DNA of 64,000 bases from Gemmatimonadales bacterium (GTDB lineage Bacteria > Gemmatimonadota > Gemmatimonadetes > Palauibacterales > Palauibacteraceae). Below are positions 42,959-52,681 of this stretch, piece after piece (the stretch's first letter is position 1; every line of letters starts with the position of its first letter). A program made the translations under genes and the position numbers. The notes beneath the pieces were generated by a model. The model ran no database searches, was not told the origin of the DNA, and was given only the letters and a program-made list of their open reading frames with translations. The stretch spans positions 62,001 through 126,000 of the forward strand of contig VXQX01000080.1 in NCBI GenBank assembly GCA_009838765.1, read 5' to 3'.

Positions 42959-45423
42959 CTTCCCGCGTCGTCCGTCGTGGTGACGGGCTTCGCCGGCTTC
43001 ACGTGCATCTCGAGCCAGCGGTCGGTCTCCCACAGCACGTGCAGGACCGACTCGCGCGCGGCGTAGCCGTGGCTCTCCGCCGGCAGGAAGACGAGCCGCG
43101 CCGTCGCGCCCAGCCCCTTGAGCGCCGCGTAGAAGCGCCGCGACTGGATGGGGAAGGTGCCCGAGTTGTTGTCGTCCTCGCCGTGGATGATGAGGATGGG
43201 CTCGTTCACCTTGTCCGCGTGCATGAAGGGCGACATGTACAGGTAGAGGTCCGGGTCCTCCCAGAAGAGCCGCTGCTCCCGCTGGAAGCCGAACGGCGTC
43301 AGCGTTCGGTTGTAGGCGCCGCTGCGCGCCACGCCGGCCCGGAAGATGTCGGAGTGGGCGAGCAGGTTGCCGGTCATGAACGCGCCGTAGGAGTGTCCGC
43401 CGACGCCGACCCGGTTCGGATCCACGACCCCGCGCCGCACGCCCTCGTCGACCGCCGCCTGGGCGTTCGCCACCAGCTGCTCGCGGAAGCTGTCGTTGGG
43501 CTCGGCGTCGCCCTCGCCGATGACCGGCATCGACGCGTTGTCGAGCACGGCGTAGCCACGGGTCACGTACGGTACGGCGCCGCCATAGGGGATCCGCGTG
43601 AACTGGTACGGCGAGTCGCGCCGCTGGCCGGCCGCCGCCGCGCTCTTGAACTCGGTCGGATACGCCCACACGAAGGTCGGCAGCGGACCATCGCGCTCCT
43701 GGTCATAGTCCGCCGGCAGGTAGAGCGTCGCCGAAAGCGGGATGCCGTCCCCGCGCTCGTACTGGATCGCCTCCTTGCGGACGCCGGCGAACTGCGGATA
43801 CGGGTGCGGGAACTCGGTCACCGCGCTGATCGTGCCCCGCTCGAGGTCGCGCACGAAATAGTTCGGGGGCTCGTCCACCGACTCCCGCCGCGTCATCAGC
43901 CGCCCATCCTCAAGGAGCGTGACCACGCCCTCGTAGTACGGCGCCTCGGAGCGGAACAACTCCTCTTCCTCCCCCGTTTCGAGGTTCCGCTTCCTGAGGA
44001 AGGGACGGTTGCCTTCCGGCGAAGCGCCCTGCCCCGCCAGGTAGATCGAGGACCCCCCGTCGGTGGTCATGAGGACGCCCCGGCCGCGCTCGTTCGTCGT
44101 GAACATCGGAAAGCCGGGGTTGTTGTAGCGGTCCTCCGTCTGCAGATCGAAAATCAGCTCCATCTCGCCGGGGGCGTCTGGATCGATCCGGTAGGTGCGC
44201 TGCTGGCGGGTGGAGAACCAGCTTTCGCTCACGAATGCGAACCCTTCCTCCGCCCACATCACGCCGCCGTAGCGGAGCGGGAGCGCCGCGATCGCGGCGG
44301 GCTCGCCGGAGAAGGGCGCCGCGTGCATGAACACCCGGTCGCGGATGTCCGCTTCGGCGAGCGCGTCGCCGCCGTCCTGCGCCTCCGTCCAATACAGCGT
44401 CGCGTCCGCGTCGGCGCGCCACGAGATCGACCGCACGCCCGTCGGAACCGACCCGAACGACGTGGGGACGCCATCCTGGAGCGGGAGTTCGGCGACCTGG
44501 TGAACCACGTTCCCCTGCGTGTCCCACACTTCGATCGTGCGCGGGAAGCGGGAGGCCGGCACCTGGTACGAGTACGGCCGGTGGGTCGTCTGTACGAGCA
44601 GATGCTCGCCGTCCGGCGATGGCGAGGAGCCCGAGAAGATCGAGGGATCGCCGACCATGGCCACGGCACCGTCGAGACCGACGCGGGCCAGCTGCGCCGT
44701 CGAGTAGTACTCGTAGAGCGCCTCATCGTGCTGGTCCTGCAGCAGGTCCTGATACGTGCGGGCGGGGGCCGCTTCTCCCGACGTCTCCTCGATCATGGGC
44801 GCCGTCGGCACCATCGGCTCGGCGGGCGCCGGGCCTCGGCCGGGCGGCACCGCCATGGCGTAGAGGAAGTCTCCTTCCGGCGACCAATTGAACGGAGCCC
44901 CGAAGCCCACGTTCACGAGATCGAGGTCCGACAGGCGCCGCGCCGCCGCGGACGCGACGTCCACGATCCAGAGTTGCACGGCCGAGTCGGTATCGTGCGT
45001 GAACGCCACCGTGCTCCCGTTCGGCGACCAGCGCGTGTTGCGGATGCGCGGATTCTCCGGCAGGCCGGTCACGGCGCGCTCTTCCCCGTCGAAGGTGCGA
45101 AGTGCGAGACCGTTTGAGGGGCGCGCGCGGCTGGGGCCGTTCGTGCGGGGGTTGATGCGCAGTCCGGCGATCCGCAGTTCCGGCGCGGCGACCTCGGCGA
45201 TCGACGGCAGGCTGGGCCGCATCGTGAGCAGCATCACCGACTCGTCGGGACTCAGGCTGATCCCCGGGGTCGCCGGGGCGTCGACGAGCGCGGCGAGTTC
45301 GGCGGCCGGCGTCTGATAGTCGTCCGCACCCTCCTGCGCGGCAACATCCGCCGTGGCCGCGGTGAGGACGAACGCGAAGGAGAGGGAGAATCGGAGGATT
45401 CGAGCGCTGTAATCGTGTCGCAT
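42955..45423 (-). CDS. Exported S9 family prolyl oligopeptidase-type peptidase
   Basis: 822 aa from ATG 45423. The signal peptide ends near ADVAAQ. Residues about 50-500 are a beta-propeller with repeats such as NTRWSPNGSTVAFTHDTD and FNWSPEGDFLYAM. The C-terminal hydrolase domain holds GGHSYGAFM (nucleophile Ser about residue 676), HGEDDNN (Asp about 753) and AESHGYAA (His about 782). It should cleave short peptides, in the manner of acylaminoacyl or glutamyl peptidases, outside the cytoplasm. Divergent from the selenoprotein gene. Confidence 0.9.
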   Translation of the reverse strand: MRHDYSARILRFSLSFAFVLTAATADVAAQEGADDYQTPAAELAALVDAPATPGISLSPDESVMLLTMRPSLPSIAEVAAPELRIAGLRINPRTNGPSRARPSNGLALRTFDGEERAVTGLPENPRIRNTRWSPNGSTVAFTHDTDSAVQLWIVDVASAAARRLSDLDLVNVGFGAPFNWSPEGDFLYAMAVPPGRGPAPAEPMVPTAPMIEETSGEAAPARTYQDLLQDQHDEALYEYYSTAQLARVGLDGAVAMVGDPSIFSGSSPSPDGEHLLVQTTHRPYSYQVPASRFPRTIEVWDTQGNVVHQVAELPLQDGVPTSFGSVPTGVRSISWRADADATLYWTEAQDGGDALAEADIRDRVFMHAAPFSGEPAAIAALPLRYGGVMWAEEGFAFVSESWFSTRQQRTYRIDPDAPGEMELIFDLQTEDRYNNPGFPMFTTNERGRGVLMTTDGGSSIYLAGQGASPEGNRPFLRKRNLETGEEEELFRSEAPYYEGVVTLLEDGRLMTRRESVDEPPNYFVRDLERGTISAVTEFPHPYPQFAGVRKEAIQYERGDGIPLSATLYLPADYDQERDGPLPTFVWAYPTEFKSAAAAGQRRDSPYQFTRIPYGGAVPYVTRGYAVLDNASMPVIGEGDAEPNDSFREQLVANAQAAVDEGVRRGVVDPNRVGVGGHSYGAFMTGNLLAHSDIFRAGVARSGAYNRTLTPFGFQREQRLFWEDPDLYLYMSPFMHADKVNEPILIIHGEDDNNSGTFPIQSRRFYAALKGLGATARLVFLPAESHGYAARESVLHVLWETDRWLEMHVKPAKPVTTTDDAGS

Positions 45424-45683: not shown

Positions 45684-46379
45684 ATGCGGATGATGGACGC
45701 GCGTTACCTCCGGCTATTTTCGGCGGGTGCCCTCGTGGCGGCGGGGTCGGCCGGCTGCGCACCCGGGGGAGATACCGAAGATGCCGACGCCTCGACCGCG
45801 GCGGTCCAGGTGGCGGCCCAGGAAGCGACCCAGGTGGCGCTCGGCCCCGTGGACGGGCATGACCTGCCCCCGGCGGACCTCGAGCGCGTGCTCGCCGGCA
45901 GCCCGGCGCCCGACTTCACCGCCCTTTCGAGCACGGGCGAGCCGATCACGCTTTCGGACTACCGCGGAGAGAAGGACGTCATCCTCTTCTTCTACCGCGG
46001 CCACTGGTGACCGTACTGCGCAAAGCAGCTCGGAGAGCTGCGAGACTTCATGACGCCCGAACAGCGCGAACGGACCCAGCTCCTGGCGATCGCTCCGGAC
46101 AGCCCCGAGGACATCGGTCTCATGGTCGACCGGGTCCTCGAGGACTACGACTACGCGCTCGACTTCCCGCTCCTGTCTGATGACGGCTCCGCGATCACGT
46201 ATCGCTACGGCCTCCTGAACGAGGACTCCGGGCGCGGGCGCCAGCTCCCGCACCCCACGACCTACGTCATCGACATGGACGGCACGGTGCGCTGGAGCTT
46301 CACCGAGGTGGACTACCGCGTCCGCCCGGAGCACGCCGACATCCTGGCCGCGCTCGAAGCCCTGGCGCAGCAGCCCTAG
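45684..46379 (+). CDS. Selenocysteine-containing peroxiredoxin-like lipoprotein (UGA readthrough)
   Basis: 231 residues if the in-frame TGA at 46008-46010 is read as selenocysteine; codon 109. Both halves are in the same frame. The N-terminal part is a lipoprotein signal (FSAGALVAAGSAGC) and the peroxiredoxin start APDFTALSSTGEPITLSDYRG. The motif reads VILFFYRGHW-Sec-PYCAKQLGEL, so the UGA is at the peroxidatic Cys position, with the following Cys as possible resolving residue. The rest (LAIAPDSPEDIG; LDFPLLSDDGSAITYRYGL; HPTTYVIDMDGTVRW) completes the AhpC/TSA fold. A bacterial-SECIS-like hairpin follows. ATG 45690 or 45693 also possible. Confidence 0.85.
46008..46041 (+). promoter_or_regulatory. 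UGA codon and bacterial SECIS-like hairpin
   Basis: UGA at 46008-46010. At 46025-46041 GCAGCTC pairs perfectly with GAGCTGC around a loop of GGA. The loop starts 22 bases after the UGA, within the known 16-37 base range, and opens with G as bacterial SECIS loops require for SelB binding. The hairpin is inside the coding region, as usual in bacteria. Confidence 0.8.
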
Positions 46380-49462: not shown

Positions 49463-52400
49463 GTGGGAGCTTCGCCCATCATGGAAACGCTCGACGCCGG
49501 CTATGCGGCCGGGAGGCCTTCGCTCTCGGAGGGAGAAGCGACCGGACTCGTCCGGGACGTCTGGGGCGTGCGCGGGCAGGCCCGCGAGTGCGCCAGCGAG
49601 CGCGACCGGGTGTTCGAGATCTCGTCGGATGCGACCGCTCGCGAGACTTCCGGCGGCTCCGGGGTCCGCGGATACCTGAAGGTCTCGAACCTGCTCGAAG
49701 ACCGCGCGGTCCTCGAGGAGGAAGCGGCCATGCTGGCGGCTCTTTCGGAGTCCCAGGCCTGCTTCGCGCTTCCGCACTGGCGCCCCGCCGGGAAGGGCGG
49801 GGACGCGGAGGCCCGCGCGGACACACCGGCGGGCGGGGGTCTCGTCGAACACGCGATCGGCGGGCGCACCCACTTCGCCCGCTTCCTGGAACCGGTCCCG
49901 GGGATTCCGCTGGACCGTTTCCGGCCGCACGGACCCGAACTGCGCCGGCAGATCGGCCGCCTCGCCGGGATCGTCGATCGTTCTTCGTCGCAACTGGCGG
50001 GCGCGGACCGCCCGATGATCTGGGACCTGCGCCGGGCCGCCTCGCTCATCGGAGAGAACCTGGACGCGATCCGGGAGCCGGGACGGCGCGAAGTCGTGGC
50101 CCGAGTCCTCGAGCGGCACGCGGCGGTCGTGCGGCCGCGGGCGGGCGAGTTGCGCGAGAGCCTGATCTACAACGATGCGAACCCGGCCAACATCCATGTC
50201 GATCCGGGGCGGATGAAGGCCGGGGCGCCCCACCTCGTCGGGATCGTGGACTTCGGCGACACGGTCCGTTCGTGGACGGTGGCGAACCTCGCCGTGGCCT
50301 GTGCCTACGCCGGGTTCGGGACGCGCGATCCGGTGGCCGCCTTCTGCGATGTGGCGCGGGGGTACGCACCGGAGCACGAGGTCATGGAGGCGGAAGCCGA
50401 TGTCCTCTACGAACTCGCGCGGCTGCGGCTCGCCCTGAGCGTGACCATCTCGTCCGTGCGCGGCGCCCAGGAGCCGGACAACGCGTACCTGCTCGTGAGC
50501 CAAGCGCCCGCGTGGGAGGTGCTCGAGCGGCTGGACGCGACGCCGCCGAACCTTGGACGTTACCGGCTGCGGGAGGCCTGCGGGCACGTGCCGTGTCCCT
50601 CGACGGCCCGCGTCATCCGGGCGCTCGAACGCGCGGCCCCGAGCGCCGCGCCCGTGCTCGATCCGGACCCCCGCACCGCGCCCACCGTCACACTCGACCT
50701 GAGCGTGGAGTCGGGGGACGACGGCGGAAGCTTCGATCCCACGGATCACTCGAAGTTCTCGCAGCGGCTGTTCGACCGGATGCGGGACGCGGGCGCGGCC
50801 GTCGGCATCGGCCGCTACGACGAGGTGCGCTGGTGGTACACGGGCGAAGCCTTCCGCGCGCCGGGGAACGAGATGGACGAGTGGCGGACCGTTCACCTCG
50901 GAGTCGACCTGTTCGCGGAGCCGGGAACGCCCGTCCTCGCGCCGCTCGGGGGTCGCGTCGTGTCCGTGCGCGACAACGCCGACCGCCTCGACTACGGCCC
51001 CACCATCATCCTGGAGCACGACCTGGAGCACGTCCTGGAGAACCCGGCCGGCGAGGCGGAGGAGGAGGAACCCGTCCGATTTCGGACGCTGTTCGGGCAC
51101 CTGTCGCCCGAATCCTTACCGAACTTCGCGCCCGGCGAGGTCGTGGAGGCGGGCCGGACGATCGGCTGGGTCGGGGGCCCGCCGGACAACGGCGACTGGG
51201 CCCCGCACCTTCACTTCCAGATCCTCCTCGATCCCCTTGGTTACGACGGCACCTTCCCGGGCGTTGCCACCCCGAGCGCCCGCGATGTCTGGGCGGCGGT
51301 GAGCCCCGACCCGAGCCACCTGCTCCGACTCCCGGGCGAGTCCGCGGCGCCACGGCCTCGCGGCCACGCCGCCCTGGTCGAAGACCGGAACCGCCAGCTC
51401 GGCCCTTCGCTGAGCCTCTCCTACCGGCGACCCCTCCACATCGTGCGGGGCCGGGGCGCCCGGCTCTACGACATCGACGGCCAGCCCTTCCTCGATTGCG
51501 TGAACAACGTCGCCCACGTGGGACATTCGCACCCGCGCGTGAACGAGGCGGCGCGCCGCCAGATGGCCGCACTCAACACGAACACGCGCTACCTGCACGA
51601 GACCATCCTCGAGTACACGGAGCGGCTGACGGCGCTCTTCCCGTCGCCCCTCGACGTGTGCTTCCTCGTATGCTCCGGCACGGAGGCCAACGAACTCGCC
51701 CTGCGCATGGCGCGCACGCACACGGGCAAGGTGGGCGCGGTCGTCCTCGACGGGGCCTACCACGGGAACTCGAGTTCGGTCGTCAACCTGAGCCCCTACA
51801 AGTTCAACGGCCCCGGCGGGAAAGGGCTCCGGCCCTGGGTCCGCATGGCGCCGATGCCGGACCTGTTTCGGGGCATCCACCGCGGGCCGGAACGGGAGGC
51901 GGCGCCCCTGTACGCGGCCCACGTCGGCGAGGCGGCGCGGGCGCTCGAGACGGAGCCCACCTGGTTCGAGGACCGCCCGCCCGGCGCGGCCGCCTTCTTC
52001 CACGAGTCGATCCTCAGTTGCGGCGGCCAGATCCCGCTCCCGGCCGGATACCTCGCGGCTTCCTACGCGGCGGCCCGCGAGCACGGCGCCCTGTGCGTGG
52101 CCGACGAGGTGCAGGTCGGCTTCGGCCGCGTGGGGTCGCACTTCTGGGCCTTCGAGGAGCACGGCGTCGTCCCCGACATCGTCACCCTCGGCAAGCCGAT
52201 CGGGAACGGCCACCCGCTCGCCGCGGTCATCACGACGCGCGAGATCGCCGAGTCCTTCGCCAACGGGATGGAGTACTTCAACACCTACGGCGGGAACCCC
52301 GTCGCCTGCGCCATCGGCCTCGCCGTCCTGGACGTGATCGAGGAAGAGGGACTGCGGGAGAACGCCGCCATCGTCGGCAGGCGCCTGCTCGCCGGCCTGG

Positions 52401-52681
52401 AAGGCCTCCGCGACCGTCACGCCCCGGTGGGCGATGCCCGCGGCCGCGGCCTGTTCACCGGCATCGAGTTCGTGCGGGAGGGAGACGATCTCGAACCGGC
52501 CGCCGATCTCGCCGACGCCGCCGTCCAACGCATGCGCGACCAGGGGCTCCTCCTCAGCACGGACGGCCCGGACCACAACGTGATCAAGATGAAGCCCCCG
52601 CTCGTCTTCTCCGAAGCCGACGCCGACCTCCTGGTCTCGGGCCTCGACGAGATCCTCGCCGAAACCGCCTTCCAGCCCTGA
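49463..52681 (+). CDS. Three-domain fusion: APH-like kinase, M23 peptidase-like, class III aminotransferase
   Basis: 1072 aa from GTG 49463 (ATG 49481 is also in frame). Residues about 30-345: aminoglycoside-phosphotransferase-fold kinase with the catalytic NDANPANIH (about 236) and DFGD (about 263). Residues about 450-620: M23/LytM-like domain with HLGVDLF (about 478), LFGHLSP and APHLHF (about 580), so all zinc ligands are in place. Residues about 650-1050: class III aminotransferase with the PLP Lys911 ([15 protein letters not shown]). Possibly related to ethanolamine-phosphate or similar lyase fusions. A coupled kinase/transaminase pathway is inference; the M23 role is unclear. Confidence 0.85.

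Follow-up and report, generated by a model that had tools for sequence, protein, structure and literature searches.

A gene in the window, the whole 64,000-nucleotide stretch of Gemmatimonadales DNA analyzed here, very probably encodes a selenoprotein. Its conservation across genomes and the decoding genes of its own genome argue for the insertion of selenocysteine (Sec) at an in-frame TGA within the UxxC motif of a Prx-like protein (Table 1). Translation of 45684-46379 with TGA read as U gives one frame of 231 residues that ends in a TAG at 46377-46379; its only in-frame TGA, codon 109, lies between FFYRGHW and PYCAKQL, in agreement with a preliminary description made from the sequence alone. 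Starts at 45690 or 45693, with a better-spaced GGGAG, are alternatives to that at 45684. A standard gene caller would cut this gene off at the TGA. It is unaccompanied: on one side lies an S9 peptidase gene encoded on the opposite strand, with its start near 45423, and on the other an SDR gene of the minus strand; the same order of the three recurs in Ca. P. poriticola. Elsewhere in the window, 49463-52681 forms a single frame of 1072 residues that, judging its translation by eye, fuses kinase-like, M23-type peptidase-like, and class III aminotransferase-like domains.

Table 1. Coordinates of the predicted selenoprotein gene and its features within the window
Feature	Position	Strand	Details and basis
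Predicted selenoprotein gene	45684..46379	+	231 residues, Sec codon 109, TAG stop; translation and same-genus orthologues
Predicted signal peptide with lipobox-like SAGC	45684..45761	+	Cys25 at 45756-45758; sequence inspection and sister-species comparison
AhpC-TSA/Redoxin domain	45894..46358	+	About residues 71-225; PF00578, 9.7e-30; PF08534, 1.4e-21; model pLDDT mostly >90 here
Active-site motif R105-G-H-W-U109-P-Y-C112	45996..46019	+	R105, G106, W108, U/C109, and C112 invariant in 36 sequences
TGA codon, predicted selenocysteine 109	46008..46010	+	Conservation and Sec machinery
Predicted bacterial SECIS hairpin	46025..46041	+	7-bp stem GCAGCTC/GAGCTGC; loop GGA at 46032-46034
H190-P191, N-terminus of a beta strand	46251..46256	+	Cis-Pro position of thioredoxin-type proteins (Arg in peroxiredoxins); alignments, model, PMC2757866

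The genome to which the window belongs (3.6 Mb, 95% complete, a draft in 96 contigs) holds all four genes for which the preliminary description had proposed a search: selA (490.6 bits), selB (370.5 bits), selD (369.7 bits, with one in-frame TGA), and, on the selB contig, a tRNA-Sec with the anticodon TCA (79.7 bits). SelA, SelB, SelD, and tRNA-Sec, as expected for a bacterial selenoprotein, are therefore all represented. The selD gene (L011, G000:C43:6923-7849, minus strand) is itself a predicted selenoprotein gene, with the motif HGAGUACKLG and a stem whose loop, GGA, is at base 21 counted from the TGA. In a relative from the Longimicrobiales, the orthologue of the window gene is followed about 2 kb downstream by a Sec-containing selD (L128:6650-7675). 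The in-frame TGA of the window gene comes after a Trp codon, which might suggest a genome-wide reassignment of TGA to tryptophan or another residue. This reading was rejected as extremely improbable, because TGA serves as a normal stop that terminates clear genes of the window (the amidohydrolase, the S9 peptidase, and the aminotransferase fusion); moreover, the tRNA-Trp has the anticodon CCA, relatives have Cys or Sec at the position, and SelB and tRNA-Sec are present.

The TGA is retained in all 14 of the other same-genus genomes with the gene, two further genomes of the genus being without a strong match. A survey of 395 genomes of the phylum returned 87 strong matches (E at most 7e-41), of which 84 carry the in-frame TGA, while the remaining three have TGC (Cys) at the same column; the named relatives are Gemmatimonadota MAGs, several of them Candidatus Palauibacter. 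A bacterial selenoprotein family would be expected to show such a TGA at a redox position that is conserved and, in some homologues, occupied by Cys. The earlier statement that Cys stands at this position in the known family is only partly correct, as the close homologues overwhelmingly share the TGA. Downstream of the TGA, the coding sequence is subject to purifying selection (dN/dS 0.10-0.44). Under the standard code the TGA is a stop, and the gene might be taken for a pseudogene whose remainder is decaying; the conserved TGA and the selection beyond it led us to reject this as highly improbable. An assembly or sequencing error for TGC or TGG, for which the draft state of the 96-contig assembly might speak, is even less credible and was likewise rejected, since the identical TGA occurs in relatives whose genomes were assembled independently.

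The three Cys genes form a single clade (SH-aLRT 98), and the tree requires only one change. They belong to the genus g25, whose listed members have SelB matches of only about 1e-47 to 1e-50, below the cut-off; matches to tRNA-Sec at 43-50 bits in this genus, which seemed to represent the machinery, were identified as tRNA-Ser by ARAGORN. When the two tables are compared by eye, all Sec genomes have a clear SelB match except one draft assembly (G156), where the match is below the cut-off, and a tRNA-Sec search of the draft assembly of another Sec genome (G157) found none. Because the Cys forms make up one clade, the agreement of Sec or Cys with SelB represents one evolutionary event, which supports Sec insertion and does not multiply the evidence. 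Within the family, Sec and Cys forms provide a natural contrast that follows whether or not SelB is present, and in the Cys forms the hairpin is disrupted. The genus copies (with L042, L043, and L049) cluster with sequences from a different family of the same class, and a strong match is missing from 18 other genomes of their own family, a pattern that transfer or repeated loss might explain. A paralogue (L111, G259:C308) retains the TGA and has Ser (TCC) at the position of C112.

Downstream of the TGA, the perfect 7-bp stem with a GGA loop is exactly as first described: the hairpin lies 14 bases beyond the TGA, and its loop starts at the 22nd base. Bacterial SECIS elements are hairpins just downstream of the TGA with a G in a small apical loop (PMC1088965), and the window gene has such a hairpin. 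By itself the hairpin counts for little: shuffled sequences of the same composition reach a comparable folding energy (z = -0.38), and of the 1258 TGA triplets found on the two strands of the window, 6 are followed at a SECIS-like distance by a perfect stem of at least 7 bp whose loop has a G as its first or second base. A search of the region against Rfam for SECIS or another RNA family gave only chance-level matches, none above threshold. The case for Sec is instead decided by conservation, as the TGA and the hairpin recur together across dozens of genomes. All 82 Sec genes examined keep 6 or 7 of the 7 stem pairs and start the loop with G (GGN or GTG). Covariation is limited to the outermost pair (G-C in 29 genes, U-A in 50), the others being nearly invariant. 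The codons that form the stem are fixed, with CAG at +6 in 82/82, CTC for Leu+7 in 81/82, and CTG for Leu+10 in 82/82, and with third-base entropy near zero where adjoining positions vary; elsewhere in the Sec genes, CTC accounts for 43% and CTG for 41% of Leu codons. The stem is broken in all three TGC homologues. These patterns favor the SECIS-like reading that was initially proposed and, along with the Sec-decoding genes, strongly support reading of the TGA as selenocysteine. Three further genes of this genome with an in-frame TGA, namely selD, L023, and L026, have unrelated stems whose loops begin at base 21-22 after it.

The predicted protein combines features of two groups of redox proteins. 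PF00578 matches it at 103.5 bits against a cut-off of 26, and an AlphaFold2 model (pLDDT 84.9, pTM 0.77) has a peroxiredoxin fold: its closest PDB counterparts are the peroxiredoxins AhpC2 and AhpE, not thioredoxins, with TM-scores of 0.84-0.87 by AhpE length. The active site is different. R105, G106, W108, U/C109, C112, H190, and P191 are invariant in 36 aligned sequences, and in an ungapped alignment of the motif with Mycobacterium tuberculosis AhpE, R105 falls on the Pro, U109 on the Thr, and C112 on the peroxidatic Cys, with P191 at Arg116. The PxxxT(S)xxC signature of catalytic peroxiredoxins is accordingly absent from RGHWUPYC, which keeps only its Cys, and Pro takes the place of the Arg opposite the peroxidatic Cys. 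The paralogues of the same genome give the same picture. In the TxxC proteins (L024, L027), the residues aligned with U109 and P191 are Thr and Arg; in the CxxC proteins (L025, L028), they are the first Cys and Pro. The TxxU protein L026 likewise has Arg at the P191 position. Sec had at first been placed at the peroxidatic site; it instead occupies the Thr of PxxxTxxC, three residues before that site. The term peroxiredoxin, also used in the preliminary description, consequently fits the fold only, the first Pro and the catalytic Arg being replaced and Sec standing at the Thr. A cis-Pro is typical of thioredoxins and cytochrome maturation proteins, where peroxiredoxins have Arg (Trx-fold atlas, PMC2757866); in the model, U109 immediately precedes a helix and P191 a strand, so that a thioredoxin-type UxxC is joined by a Pro at the matching alignment position and strand start. 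Taken together, the alignments, the cis-Pro rule, and the model suggest a peroxiredoxin scaffold bearing a thioredoxin-type UxxC/Pro site.

The protein is probably exported, likely as a lipoprotein, as originally suggested. The signal-like stretch ending in SAGC has equivalents in sister species (LAGC, LAAC, AAGC, or AVGC), and a lipobox-like motif is present in 39 of 86 homologues across the phylum; most of the others have a hydrophobic N-terminal stretch, and many look cleaved by signal peptidase I or membrane anchored. Ribosomes would read UGA codon 109 as Sec by means of SelB and tRNA-Sec, with the hairpin directing the insertion. Sec109 would then most likely attack a disulfide (or a peroxide), yielding a selenenylsulfide with Cys112 whose reduction might fall to a reductant of the membrane or periplasm, possibly a protein of the CcdA/DsbD type. 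Proteins of this type are encoded in the genome, none of them linked to the selenoprotein gene, and their presence makes an envelope electron donor plausible. Thiol/selenol-disulfide exchange is the somewhat favored activity, the reaction, substrate, and electron donor all being inferred. Since the overall fold matches peroxiredoxins, not thioredoxins, a selenoperoxidase has an appreciable, if smaller, chance of being correct: Sec109 would reduce envelope hydroperoxides, and Cys112 would resolve the selenenic acid. Sec often confers peroxidase activity, and both the fold and the family matches are to peroxiredoxins (AhpE, AhpC2). No NCBIfam model matches the protein at its cut-off, the top match below it being a thioredoxin-dependent thiol peroxidase. 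Such a role is opposed by the active site, where only one of the four peroxiredoxin signature residues is kept and R105, U109, and P191 stand in for the Pro, Thr, and Arg. Compatible with Sec insertion, and rather tentative as a refinement of it, is inefficient reading of the UGA, which would yield a 108-residue product next to the full one, or Cys in place of Sec when selenium is scarce; PMC4513850 puts UGA recoding in vivo at 30-40% efficiency. The 108-residue product is unlikely to have a role, as C112 and most of the domain would be missing from it.

Assignment to the Prx-like UxxC selenoproteins, which are already known, is well supported and makes the window protein a further example. 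They were described as "Prx-like" with UXXC and PF00578 in the Sargasso Sea set (PMC1088965), as "Prx-like 1" with PF00578 in the GOS set, which had 225 Sec forms and 2,740 Cys homologues (PMC2398784), and as "Prx-like thiol:disulfide oxidoreductase" in reviews (PMC13188914, PMC9312934). A literature search found no enzymology for UxxC Prx-like selenoproteins and no account of selenoproteins in the phylum Gemmatimonadota, where this gene is widespread. The same genome has a second UxxC Prx-like gene (L023, G000:C49:9917-10447), with FFRGRWUPYC and an 8-bp stem with a GGT loop unrelated in sequence to the window hairpin. It also has a third redoxin with an in-frame TGA (L026/L143, G000:C40:53711-54271, minus strand), which is of the TxxU type (TRGU), keeps the Arg, has Sec at the peroxidatic position, and faces a CcdA-type gene and a thioredoxin-domain gene. 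A single genome thus offers a clean contrast between a UxxC gene and a TxxU-type gene.

Compared by family descriptors, the window protein matches the published Prx-like UxxC selenoproteins in PF00578, distant homology to peroxiredoxins, UxxC (WUPYC) instead of TxxU, and a SECIS with a G in the apical loop. The Gemmatimonadota subfamily differs from that family as described in its probable export, in its invariant RGxW[U/C]xxC motif and HP pair, and in a Sec:Cys ratio of 84:3. It is a speculative suggestion that the phylum harbors a distinct, mostly Sec-dependent, envelope-exported Prx-like branch, in which Sec prevails and Cys occurs only in a clade without Sec decoding, and which possibly carries out an undescribed periplasmic seleno-thiol reaction. 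With the Sec peroxiredoxins of the TxxU type (PrxU, NF040737), the window protein shares the Pfam fold and, by prediction, active-site selenium, but in PrxU the Sec is peroxidatic, preceded by Thr and opposed by Arg, whereas here Sec occupies the Thr position and Pro that of the Arg. The SelL-related redox proteins (NF040769) align over the redox-motif region (37.5 bits over residues 74-145), yet this score is far under their curated cut-off of 120. Finally, the TlpA/ResA/CcmG-type oxidoreductases resemble the window protein in having [C/U]xxC at a helix start, a Pro that aligns with the cis-Pro position, and, probably, export; unlike them, it has a peroxiredoxin-like scaffold and Sec in place of the first Cys.
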